A DNA stretch of 64,000 nucleotides, from positions 1-64,000 of the forward strand of contig NZ_CP090974.1 in the NCBI RefSeq assembly GCF_021513195.1, written 5' to 3'. The translations under genes were made by a program, and so were the position numbers. Source of the DNA: Shewanella sp. OMA3-2. GTDB lineage: Bacteria; Pseudomonadota; Gammaproteobacteria; Enterobacterales; Shewanellaceae. Under the pieces are notes generated by a model. The model had not been told where the DNA came from. It searched no databases and saw only the letters and a list, made by a program, of their open reading frames with translations. The first letter of the stretch is position 1; the number at the start of each line of letters is the position of its first letter. This document shows positions 27,489-59,181 of this stretch, piece after piece.

Positions 27489-28450
27489 ATGCGAATTGGC
27501 CCCTATCAACTGTCTAATCAGCTGATCGTGGCACCAATGGCAGGTGTTACCGATCAAGCCTTCCGCAACCTTTGTTTACGTTATGGCGCAGCCTTAGCAG
27601 TATCTGAAATGTTGTCGTCCAATCCTGATGTTTGGGACTCGGATAAAAGCCGCGTGCGCATGGCGCATTCGGGTGAAGAAGGAATACGCTCCGTACAAAT
27701 TGCAGGTGCAGACCCTGATTTAATGGCTAATGCCGCTCAGTTCAATGTTGAACAAGGCGCACATATCATTGATATCAATATGGGTTGCCCAGCAAAAAAA
27801 GTGAATAAAAAGTTAGCAGGTTCTGCATTGATGCAAAACCCCTGCTTAGTAAAAGAGATTTTACAAGCCGTGGTTAGCGCAGTGGATGTTCCAGTAACCC
27901 TAAAAATTCGCACGGGTGGGACCCAGATAATCGTAACGGGATCCAAATAGCCCAAATTGCCCAAGATTGTGGCATTGCTTCGTTAGCGGTCCACGGCCGT
28001 ACTAAGCAATGTATGTATAAAGGCTTTGCTGAATACGACACGATTAAAGCAATAAAACAGAATATATCGATTCCGGTTGTTGCCAATGGCGATATAACCA
28101 GTCCCGAAAAAGCCAAATTTGTGCTTGATTACACGGGTGCTGATGCGGTGATGATAGGAAGAGGTGCACAAGGAAGGCCCTGGATTTTTAAAGAAATTCA
28201 GCACTACTTGGAAACAGGTTCAAAGTTAGCGCCTATCGAGGCAGAAGAGCAACGCACTGTGATGCTTGAACACCTTGATAAACTTTACAATCTGTATGGC
28301 GAGTACAAAGGTGTCCGTTTTGCCAGAAAGCATATCGGATGGTACCTAAACCACGAAGAACAACGTCAATGGCGTGCTGACTTCAACAGGCTTGAAACCG
28401 CTGTCCAACAGCATTCCTTTGTGGAATGTTATTTTGAAGAATTAGTGTAA
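27489..28450 (+). pseudogene. dusB: tRNA-dihydrouridine synthase B with a one-base frameshift
   Basis: FMN-dependent reductase that makes dihydrouridine in tRNA. The N-terminal frame has [13 protein letters not shown] and [14 protein letters not shown] up to VTLKIRTG. The next frame carries on with [37 protein letters not shown] and MIGRGAQGRPWIF. One missing T near 27917 (GGTGGG for GGTTGGG) separates the two frames. Restoring it gives 320 residues, close to E. coli DusB (321). Every flavin and tRNA motif is otherwise intact, so I suspect a sequence error rather than a dead gene. fis follows 23 bases downstream. Confidence 0.88.
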
Positions 28451-28473
28451 AATTAATTAAAGAGCAGAATAGA

Positions 28474-28779
28474 ATGTTTGATCAGACAACTAACACAGAA
28501 GTTCACCAGCTTACCGTAGGCAAAATTGAAACAGCAAACGGCACTATCAAGCCGCAGTTATTACGCGACGCAGTAAAACGCGCCGTAACCAACTTCTTCT
28601 CTCAGTTAGACGGTCAGGAAGCTTCAGAAGTGTATGAAATGGTACTAAGTGAAGTTGAAGCACCTTTACTAGACATCATCATGCAACACACTCGTGGCAA
28701 CCAAACTCGCGCAGCGAACATGTTAGGTATCAATCGTGGTACTTTACGTAAGAAGCTAAAAAAATACGGCATGAACTAA
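28474..28779 (+). CDS. fis: DNA-binding protein Fis
   Basis: Nucleoid protein and factor for inversion stimulation, abundant in fast growth. The 101 residues match the family (98 in E. coli). The N-terminal arm and dimer helices lead to the HTH at the C-terminus, [20 protein letters not shown] (about 78-97). It is the second gene of dusB-fis. A hairpin terminator at 28807-28844 ends the operon. Confidence 0.97.
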
Positions 28780-28806
28780 GACTTAACGTCTAAGCGATTG
28801 TAATGA

Positions 28807-28844
28807 AACGGGCTTATCAGTAATGATAAGCCCGTTTTGCTTTT
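28807..28844 (+). terminator. dusB-fis terminator
   Basis: AACGGGCTTATCA pairs perfectly with TGATAAGCCCGTT around a GTAA loop, then TTGCTTTT. Confidence 0.85.
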
Positions 28845-28944
28845 AAGGGACACGCTTAATTACACGCATGATAAAGCCACTATAAAAGCAACGGAGATTG
28901 CCCTCTCTCAACGATGAAGTAATAAGTAAAACACCTTGAATTGG

Positions 28945-56303: not shown

Positions 56304-57236
56304 TCATTCGATTGAGAAATCATTAATGTCTGCTTGAGCATCAAGGCTATTACCCTGCAAACAATTTCCCTTAGGTGGACATTGACCCAGTACCCACTGT
56401 AAGCCATGAATAGCCGTAGTAGGAAAAGCAGTTTGATGATCCGCTTCGGGAATAATCAATAATTTTGTCTGCAATCTTGAGGGCCATTGTTGCATCAAAT
56501 CATTAAAGGCCTGCGCCTCTTTTACCATGTCTTCGCCAGCTCCGTGGACCTTACTTTCTAATTCGCCAATGCCGATGAACACTTTGGCAGATATAGGTTG
56601 AGTGTTTTTTACAAATTGTTTTTCTAATTCAAAAATATACCCTTTATCCCACCAGTAAGAAGGGCTACCAAAAATGTAGCTGTCGAACATTTCAGGCTTA
56701 GTCATTAAAATATACGTTCCAAATAGCCCGCCCAAAGAGTTACCCATGTAAACCCGTTTACTAGCCAGTGCGCGGTAATGACTCTCGACATAATTAAACA
56801 CTGTCTGTCCAATAAAATCACGATGAGCCGCAGCCCCTCCAGTAACATTCTTCCACTGTTTATTTTGCGTTGGGGTATAGTCACGAATGCGGCTTAAGCT
56901 CCCTATGCTGCCTTTAGAATAGGAAATTCCCACAATAATGGCTTCATCCATTTTATTGAAATTCATCGGAAATCGGCTCGCACCAGACACAATTTGGAAG
57001 CTATACCAAGCATCGGTTAAATACACCACCGGGTAGTGCTTATTGGGTTGACTGTGATAAGACTTAGGCAATTTAACAAATAAAGGGTAAATTCGCTGAC
57101 TACTAGGATCTGTAATCTCAACCACTTGACTTCTTGGAATATTAAATGGTTGGGCGTTATTATTTGCCCCAAAAACAGAGATCGATGTTAAAACCATAAT
57201 GACAAAAAACATAACACGAGTCGATAGCATACTCAC
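56304..57236 (-). CDS. Secreted esterase (alpha/beta-hydrolase, esterase D type)
   Basis: A 310-residue hydrolase of the Fes/IroE/esterase D type. A signal peptide is at 1-24 (LSTRVMFFVIMVLTSISVFGA). The nucleophile motif is MGNSLGGLFGTY. A later Asp and His (IPEADHQTAFPT) complete the triad. Related enzymes cut siderophore esters or S-formylglutathione; no siderophore genes lie near. GTG 57236 or ATG 57230 could be the start. The predicted product is periplasmic. Confidence 0.8.
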   Translation of the reverse strand: MSMLSTRVMFFVIMVLTSISVFGANNNAQPFNIPRSQVVEITDPSSQRIYPLFVKLPKSYHSQPNKHYPVVYLTDAWYSFQIVSGASRFPMNFNKMDEAIIVGISYSKGSIGSLSRIRDYTPTQNKQWKNVTGGAAAHRDFIGQTVFNYVESHYRALASKRVYMGNSLGGLFGTYILMTKPEMFDSYIFGSPSYWWDKGYIFELEKQFVKNTQPISAKVFIGIGELESKVHGAGEDMVKEAQAFNDLMQQWPSRLQTKLLIIPEADHQTAFPTTAIHGLQWVLGQCPPKGNCLQGNSLDAQADINDFSIE

Positions 57237-57344
57237 CCACTAAGCTTGACATAAAATTCATAGATTAAAGATAGCCGTCAAACCTAACCCAGTTTGATTA
57301 AACTTTAAAAAGCAGCGACCAACGCTATCCCTGATGCTGAGTAA

Positions 57345-57749
57345 CTAACGCACCCACAACATAAGCTCATTAGCATCTACCACAGCCAACTGCCTTTTAG
57401 TTAATTCGCCTGCTGCGTCAAACAGTAATAACTCCGCAGGTCTGGCACTATGCTTAGCTATCAATTGGTCTCCCTCTGGGGTGCCCGCTCTGGCAAGTAA
57501 AAAGAAAACGTTATCACCAAGATGAGCACGCGCTTCATTCATCTGCTCAGTCTGGCTGGTACTTGAAACGAGGTTAGGATCATAGACAAATACTAGCGCA
57601 GGTTTGCCGGTGCCAATTTGTTCATGGGTGGTTTTAAATCCCTTGGGCATCACCATCAGCACCAACCCCAAAACAGCAACGATAGTTGCAATAACACTTA
57701 TCGAAACCCAAGGCATTTTACCTGGCGAGTTTGAAGTATTTTTATTCAT
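57345..57749 (-). CDS. Membrane-anchored protein of unknown function
   Basis: A 134-residue protein with one N-terminal membrane helix (PWVSISVIATIVAVLGLVLMV, about 13-33) and an extracytoplasmic domain. The sequence PALVFVYDPNLVSS, FFLLARAGTPEGDQ and LLLFDAAGELTKRQLAVV suggests a thioredoxin-like fold with no cysteine pair. Not recognised as a named family. It lies upstream of the esterase with about 108 bases between, so cotranscription is possible. Confidence 0.65.
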   Translation of the reverse strand: MNKNTSNSPGKMPWVSISVIATIVAVLGLVLMVMPKGFKTTHEQIGTGKPALVFVYDPNLVSSTSQTEQMNEARAHLGDNVFFLLARAGTPEGDQLIAKHSARPAELLLFDAAGELTKRQLAVVDANELMLWVR

Positions 57750-58258
57750 GATGGTAAGCCTCTATTTTTATTGTTGAAATACATAATCACGTTGTGCAGT
57801 GTAGTGAGTTAACCTGAGCGCAAGATTAAAAATTGTCGAACCTATTAGGAGAAGCTCATCAATAGGTTATTGATTACAGCAATAACCTTTACTTTGTAGC
57901 ATCAGTATCTTGTGTCACTCTCGCTAACAGAAAACATTACTCACTCAATTATAACTGCTAAGATTATGATACTTACTGTTAACATTTTACTCTTACTATA
58001 AAAAATAACGATAAACTTGCTGAACATTATTTGGCTGAATTGAGTATTACTTGGTTGAGTTGAGCATTACTTGTCTTAATTAAGCTTTAGTTAAGCGTTA
58101 GCTAAAAATGAATAAACTAACTTTGCTTTACCTAGGTTGAGGCTGCCACTGTACACAAGGTACTATTTTTGCTTAATATTTAAATAAAATGCACTCAGCA
58201 GTAAACCAAACCATGTCTCATCTTTATTTGAACATCATAGTCAACAAGGACTAAATCA
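57750..58258. other. Intergenic stretch with a tandem repeat
   Basis: No gene. A 20-bp imperfect tandem repeat lies at 58031-58070. GTG 58259 of the next gene has AAGGA 8 bases before it. Confidence 0.5.
58031..58070. repeat. 20-bp imperfect tandem repeat
   Basis: TTGGCTGAATTGAGTATTAC (58031-58050) and TTGGTTGAGTTGAGCATTAC (58051-58070) differ at three positions. It lies about 190 bases before the PAS-GGDEF gene. Confidence 0.8.
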
Positions 58259-59181
58259 GTGGCTCAATTGTTAGATCATCATATTGAACAGATTATTATT
58301 GATTCACTATTACTCACAAAAGATGGTGTAGGCATTTTTGATCCCGAAGACAGGTTAATATTTTGCAATCTTGCCTTAGCGATGTTTTTATCCATGCCTG
58401 CTGAACAAGCCTTACATAAAACGTTTTCTGAATTGTGTTTTATCTGTTTTAGTAACAAAACAGGGATAAATATTGAAGCAGATTGTTTTGATACTTGGAT
58501 AGCTGCTACAAATAAAAAAAGAAGACATAGTGATTACCGCACATTTGAAACCGACACAGTAGCAGGCAAGTACTTCATAGTAACCGAACAAATGGTGCAG
58601 AATAATTACTTGTATATGTATATCACTGACATTACAGAAAAAAAGAGAATGAAAAAAGGCTCAAGTTAATGTCGCAAAAGCTAGAAAAACTGGCCGCAAC
58701 AGATTACTTAACCGGTATTCATAACCGTCGTCATTTTTACGAAACCGCCAAAGAGGAATTTAATAGAAGTTTAAGGCAAAATATCACTCTAACAGTACTG
58801 ATGTTAGACCTAGATAAATTTAAACTTATCAACGATACCTATGGCCATAATGCTGGCGACCTAGTGTTGCAAACGTTTACCAAAACGGTCAGTAAATTGC
58901 TCAGGGACTATGATACTTTTGCGCGCATAGGCGGCGAAGAGTTCGCTATTTTACTGCCTTCAACAGACGCTACCATAGGCGCGATGATCGCTGAACGAAT
59001 TAGAGCCGCGGTAGCAGCAATGACAATTATCTTTGAAAATGACACGCTAATGATTACAACATCGATAGGACTGTTACAACACTCAGATCAAATAACCTGT
59101 TTCGATCATATGATGCAAATAGCAGATGAACACCTGAACCTAGCCAAAAAAAATGGACGAAATAGAGTAAAAGTAGGTTAA
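58259..59181 (+). pseudogene. PAS-GGDEF diguanylate cyclase, one-base frameshift
   Basis: A predicted cyclic di-GMP synthase, 307 residues after repair. A PAS domain (about 10-125; GVGIFDPEDRLIFCNLAL) ends in the DITEKKRMKK helix. The next frame runs from MSQKLEKLAATDYLTGIHNR into GGDEF: ARIGGEEFAILLP with inhibitory RDYD five residues before. The A-run at 58652-58657 is one A short; restoring it gives KKRLKLMSQKLEKL. The ORF from 58669 on its own would be a plain GGDEF domain, but the frame position and the PAS-type linker favour a single protein. The start is GTG. Confidence 0.8.

Follow-up and report, generated by a model that had tools for sequence, protein, structure and literature searches.

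We analyzed the first 64 kb (the window) of the single-contig genome of Shewanella sp. OMA3-2 (4,092,736 bases; G000), in which eight genes between 27 and 59 kb are each split by a missing base: dusB, a class V aminotransferase gene, ilvD, ilvG, yifB, a YihG-family acyltransferase gene, a long sensor gene, and a PAS-GGDEF gene (Table 1). Judged from sequence comparison, the eight splits are in all likelihood artifacts of systematic consensus errors, and the living bacterium very probably carries all eight genes intact. One-base shifts of this kind are private to the assembly, occur in every larger region sampled, are biased toward loss, are enriched at CCGG or CCNGG (together CC(N)GG), and affect a gene of essential type that is present in single copy.

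One-base losses in the window and beyond

We compared G000 with the closest genome among the 60 searched (G020; one contig, 4,456,447 bases), which is colinear with much of the window at about 80 to 94% DNA identity. The window is one base short of G020 at seven of the eight sites, and the open reading frames (ORFs) of G020 stay open there. Over these seven sites together, 268 of 269 aligned sequences from relatives are one base longer than the window, a count that includes some other genera and in which some genomes probably appear twice. A tblastn search with the G020 proteins found two reading frames meeting at the site in all six window genes tested, those with sites from 27914 to 43022. 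The eighth site, 58657, lies outside the G020 alignment and is read from one relative (G063, 72% DNA identity), which is one base longer next to the A run. A strain of the same species was not found for comparison, the best IlvD match among the best 120 of 8000 scored candidates being 94% identical.

The loss of one base in each of the eight genes had been proposed earlier from the letters of the window (the sequence-only reading), with alignment to orthologues in relatives named as the way to find the missing base. That alignment located it at the seven sites, and the single relative at 58657 agrees. The same reading held that each repaired gene has the length of its family; this was assessed only through ORF lengths in the intact relatives (Table 1).

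To count shifts beyond the window, 724 kb of G000, running from 3.83 Mb through the contig end and on from 1 to 464 kb, were compared with 680 kb of G020, which gave 404 kb of aligned sequence. A shift was counted if it was not cancelled within 60 bases and lay in a G020 ORF of at least 100 amino acids (aa), 60 or more bases from the ends of that ORF. Thirty-nine rows were listed as shifts inside G020 ORFs, and four were set aside: 19563 (at the edge of an aligned block, its own ORF open), position 0 (where the contig end meets the contig start), one shift of -2, and one of -26. The remainder comprised 31 sites inside ORFs at which G000 is one base short, two of them (near 462 kb) in weaker alignments, and 4 at which it is one base long. 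G020 itself was shifted in just 3 rows of this comparison. In a separate region (G000 3.34 to 3.54 Mb, 141 kb aligned), G000 had 8 short sites, 3 long sites, and one shift of 13 bases, and G020 was shifted in 1. As a side observation on the join, when contig end 4092736 is connected to window position 1, the sequence within a 354-aa ORF is one base longer than that of G020, which may reflect imperfect closure of the circle.

These counts change the picture of a local event that the sequence-only reading had drawn from a cluster at 27 to 59 kb, an empty first 27 kb, and a single sign. Shifts go on elsewhere, among other genes in parE, uvrD, rnr (two sites), rapZ, rsmE, putA, argA, and ctaD, and mutS is shifted in the separate region, at CCTGG. 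Of 5000 random placements, 967 had no event in the first 27 kb and 187 reached the maximum of seven shifts in some 20 kb. Both values are near chance, so the gap and the cluster call for no explanation, and we reject a local weakness or real cluster at 27 to 59 kb. The long sites in both regions show that the single sign is a bias toward loss, not a rule.

Consensus error or gene decay

Genes in decay are expected to show relaxed constraint, and the broken genes do not. The median number of non-synonymous codon differences per synonymous one was 0.147 in broken ORFs (29 measurable of 32 in all) and 0.167 in 287 intact ORFs (P = 0.49). Stops caused by substitution numbered 1 in the 29 broken ORFs, and 22 such codons occurred in 19 of the 287 intact ones. 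Decay would also be expected to spare essential genes. The sole parE over the family cut-off, however, has two shift places with three bases lost within about 115, and five stops are read between them; the other match, below the cut-off, lies in an 810-aa ORF that is probably gyrB. Topoisomerase IV is essential in gammaproteobacteria, and the parE version with five stops should therefore not be that of the living cell. Equal constraint together with a broken single-copy parE argues for consensus error. Error rather than decay was also what the sequence-only reading had implied, and this part of it stands, the losses being private to G000 and spread over the sampled genome.

Two explanations would make the losses real. 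The ilvG gene of E. coli K-12 carries a frameshift, and ilvD and ilvG are adjacent here and both shifted, as might be expected if an isoleucine-valine and signaling region were decaying; because the shifts extend far beyond that region, into parE, uvrD, and the others named above, and because constraint is unchanged, with that one substitution stop among the broken ORFs, we consider regional decay extremely improbable. A mutator strain, in which one-base losses accumulate in living cells, could be read from mutS, which is split in G000 but intact in all 4 relatives compared. Without a working mutS, errors would be expected in runs, with gains as well as losses, but the shifts are enriched at CC(N)GG; the mutS shift itself lies at CCTGG, as other shifts do, and a living cell could not do without parE. 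A real mutator is thus very unlikely.

Motif context and a cytosine-5 methyltransferase

Since the placement of gaps by BLAST is free by a few bases, we relied on window and motif counts and not on single placements. Thirty of the 31 short sites passed the flank filter of the motif test, and around them CCGG is over-represented 28-fold and CCCGG 93-fold in G000. CCGG or CCNGG lies at most 7 bases away at 16 of the 30, compared with 2.6% of 17,298 random coding positions. In the separate region, CC(N)GG accompanies 6 of 11 one-base shifts (background, 2.7%). Within the window, CC(N)GG is present in G000 at 29959, 34624, and 46883, CCSGG is present in G020 at 34041, and the other four sites have A runs (43022 and 58657) or G-rich contexts (27914 and 41218).

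Counts by motif separate CC(N)GG from runs as such. Among G/C runs of at least three bases, 9 of the 336 that touch CC(N)GG lacked one base, compared with 9 of the 4519 that do not. CCSGG was one base short in 7 of 153 cases, with 0 of 82 in the opposite direction (P = 3e-7 against G/C runs elsewhere), and CCWGG in 7 of 473, with 1 of 449 opposite (P = 0.07 against GGSCC plus GGWCC). The control motifs were one base short in 1 of 238 (GGSCC), 0 of 192 (GGWCC), 0 of 796 (GCSGC), and 0 of 517 (CGSCG) cases. In the coding alignment, 27 of 41 one-base-short gaps fall, as BLAST places them, where the longer sequence has no run. A/T runs of at least 5 bases without CC(N)GG mark 6 of the 30 sites (background, 3.7%), and A/T runs of at least 7 bases show no overall excess of loss in G000 (3 of 132 short in G000, 7 of 133 in the reverse comparison). 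The homopolymers invoked by the sequence-only reading are present at some sites, A runs among them, but are not supported as the main determinant, for which CC(N)GG fits better; on run counts and gap placement we reject a pure homopolymer model as the main cause.

G000 encodes one cytosine-5 methyltransferase, at 183302-184630, in a segment without alignment to G020. Among the matches listed from a search of 5000 plasmid records, it is 78% identical to an enzyme of a Vibrio vulnificus plasmid. A 379-aa enzyme of small enterobacterial plasmids, including those of Shigella sonnei, is 49% identical by tblastn and 56% in alignment, and aligns over both the N-terminal region and the methyltransferase domain. 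M.SsoII, known from plasmid P4 of S. sonnei, also has 379 residues, and its methylation target is the inner cytosine of CCNGG (PMC6100179). The length, host range, and gene layout of the 379-aa plasmid enzyme (pKPN2) suggest that it is SsoII-like. The G000 enzyme resembles M.SsoII in having an N-terminal region and a methyltransferase domain, the arrangement given in published descriptions (PMC6100179, PMC3978073). Unlike the SsoII system, it has no adjacent SsoII-type endonuclease gene, and its divergent neighbor is a 616-aa SNF2-type helicase.

On the opposite strand beside the methyltransferase gene are this helicase, an MzaB-like ATPase, and an McrB-like ATPase, the last two below their NCBIfam cut-offs. 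The island does not qualify as an MZA system, as MzaB scored 172.6 bits against a curated cut-off of 850; with PADLOC, MzaB matched at E 1.8e-41 and no other Mza model was among the matches listed for the eight proteins scanned. A weak N4/N6-methyltransferase match at 1.72 Mb was rejected as a candidate, being the rRNA methyltransferase RlmKL. That gene (about 1724268-1726417 in G000) is itself broken into a 490-aa and a 235-aa ORF that overlap, in all probability another false shift.

Substitutions offer a view of CCNGG that is independent of the frameshifts. At its inner cytosine, C in G020 with T in G000 occurs 98 times and the reverse 42 times, compared with 7559:6976 elsewhere (P = 2e-5), the direction not being polarised by an outgroup. 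Three neighboring-context controls gave ratios of 1.10, 1.14, and 1.22. Such a C-to-T excess is the scar expected of long methylation at CCNGG.

CCSGG is also scarce, which is a separate and real feature. The sampled stretches of G000 (about 1 Mb) hold 199 CCSGG against 396 expected, compared with 324 against 401 expected in G020, and 49 other Shewanella loci hold 1051 against 991 expected. Of 89 coding changes at CCSGG, 84 are synonymous; the scarcity is thus a product of evolution, and miscalled substitutions are ruled out as its source. The methyltransferase is not supported as its cause either. A search of 129 genomes, to which G020, G034, and G051 appear to belong, gave a match at E 1e-30 in 21, including G000. 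In six other carriers (68 to 87% identity), observed per expected CCSGG was 0.79, 0.86, 0.71, 0.80, 1.27, and 0.28, the last from 10 kb; carriers G125 and G118 are represented by only 19 and 10 kb. G051, not among the methyltransferase matches, is CCSGG-poor (14 against 30 expected). CCWGG is scarce in three of the six carriers, G125, G117, and G056, at 0.23, 0.40, and 0.39 observed per expected.

These observations can be joined in a mechanism. The M.SsoII-like enzyme would methylate the inner cytosine of CCNGG in G000; native long-read base-calling untrained on the methyl mark would drop a base there; and dropped, less often added, bases would be left uncorrected in the consensus, a number of them at A runs and others outside any class. 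We lean toward modification at CCNGG as the main cause of the errors, with modest confidence. Several points weigh against it. Eight of the 30 sites fall in no class, neither CC(N)GG nor A/T run. CCWGG, also an expected target of an M.SsoII-like enzyme, is affected much less than CCSGG. CCSGG substitutions look evolved, so the motif mismatches common in published cases are not seen, and CCSGG scarcity does not track the methyltransferase across other Shewanella. Modification errors published for Listeria and Klebsiella are mainly mismatches (PMC10687267, PMC11610573), and indels were not the source in the Listeria genomes reported (PMC10687267). In the C-to-T test single contexts vary as much as CCNGG; among 191 of them, CCTGG ranks second, after an unrelated context. 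Noncoding alignment (47.6 kb) has no bias to loss, with one-base gaps 50 short and 63 long, a test that is uninformative and lends no support because real evolution swamps any excess. Finally, the sequencing platform of the assembly is not given.

The most probable alternative is long-read consensus error without DNA modification, in which the base-caller compresses short C/G and A/T runs. The sites at A runs exceed their background, some G-rich sites lack CC(N)GG, and the platform is not given, all of which suit run compression. Against it stand the G/C runs, short far more often at CC(N)GG than elsewhere, and the A/T runs, which have no overall excess of loss in G000. We regard run compression as possible but doubtful. 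If modification at CCNGG is the cause, the false frameshifts may amount to a readable methylome, with CCNGG methylated by an M.SsoII-like enzyme in a non-SsoII defense island and the mark leaving a real C-to-T scar in the lineage. We offer this fuller account tentatively, as a conjecture that could well be wrong.

Table 1. Split genes of the window and the methyltransferase island, with coordinates in G000
Feature	Coordinates	Strand	Shift near	Context	ORF in G020	Frames by tblastn	Relatives one base longer
dusB	27489..28450	+	27914	G-rich	320 aa; NCBIfam DusB over cut-off	two	19/19
Class V aminotransferase	29448..30586	-	29959	CCGG at site	379 aa; aminotransferase models below cut-offs	two	62/63
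ilvD	32324..34182	-	34041	CCSGG there in G020	619 aa; IlvD over cut-off	two	79/79
ilvG (acetolactate synthase 2 catalytic subunit)	34515..36247	-	34624	CCTGG at site	578 aa; over cut-off	two	57/57
yifB	40949..42510	+	41218	G run	520 aa; over cut-off	two	42/42
YihG-family acyltransferase	42582..43516	+	43022	A run	311 aa; over cut-off	two	7/7
Long sensor gene (Reg_prop-GGDEF-EAL as named in the sequence-only reading)	44622..49138	+	46883	CCTGG at site	1505 aa; spans site		2/2
PAS-GGDEF gene (as named in the sequence-only reading)	58259..59181	+	58657	A run	outside G020 alignment		one relative
Island without G020 alignment: SNF2-type helicase, MzaB-like ATPase, 307-aa unknown protein, McrB-like ATPase, 430-aa protein (weak type II restriction match), M.SsoII-like methyltransferase	G000:175555-185329						

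Upstream of the 3' end of the aminotransferase gene, window positions 29320-29354 hold a tandem repeat in which three 15-base copies overlap, spaced ten bases apart, and a palindrome lies beside it at 29280-29329.

Related error patterns and consequences for the genome

Comparable errors have been described. About 70% of the consensus errors of one K. pneumoniae genome fell in CCAGG/CCTGG, nanopore base-callers failing at Dcm motifs (PMC6591954), and four of five low-quality Listeria genomes carried an mza defense system with a methyltransferase (PMC10687267). Nanopore methylation-motif errors come back at a short motif tied to a methyltransferase, depend on the strain, and persist into the consensus (PMC6591954, PMC11610573, PMC10687267), and the pattern in G000 resembles them. 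It differs in that one-base losses dominate, whereas mismatches are the main class in the cases set out in PMC10687267 and PMC11610573. The motif also differs, being CC(N)GG, strongest at CCSGG, in G000 and GCAGC or GCTGG in Listeria (PMC10687267). As with the spurious pseudogenes attributed to assembly error (PMC11017572), the frameshifted genes are nearly certainly real genes; that account names assembler, platform, and coverage, whereas in G000 a sequence motif is over-represented.

The 46 one-base shifts in 545 kb of aligned sequence would correspond, by simple extrapolation, to roughly 350 false shifts genome-wide. Anyone using G000 as the reference for its species would be led to infer auxotrophy (ilvD, ilvG), a mutator (mutS), and gene loss, all wrongly. 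The completeness rating of 99.97% gave no warning of this, and the motif test offers an inexpensive way to screen assemblies of this kind. The biology is ordinary, and the value of the finding is as a warning about a reference genome. If the methylome reading proved general, the specificities of methyltransferases would be predictable from the frameshifts mapped in published assemblies, with no need for signal data.

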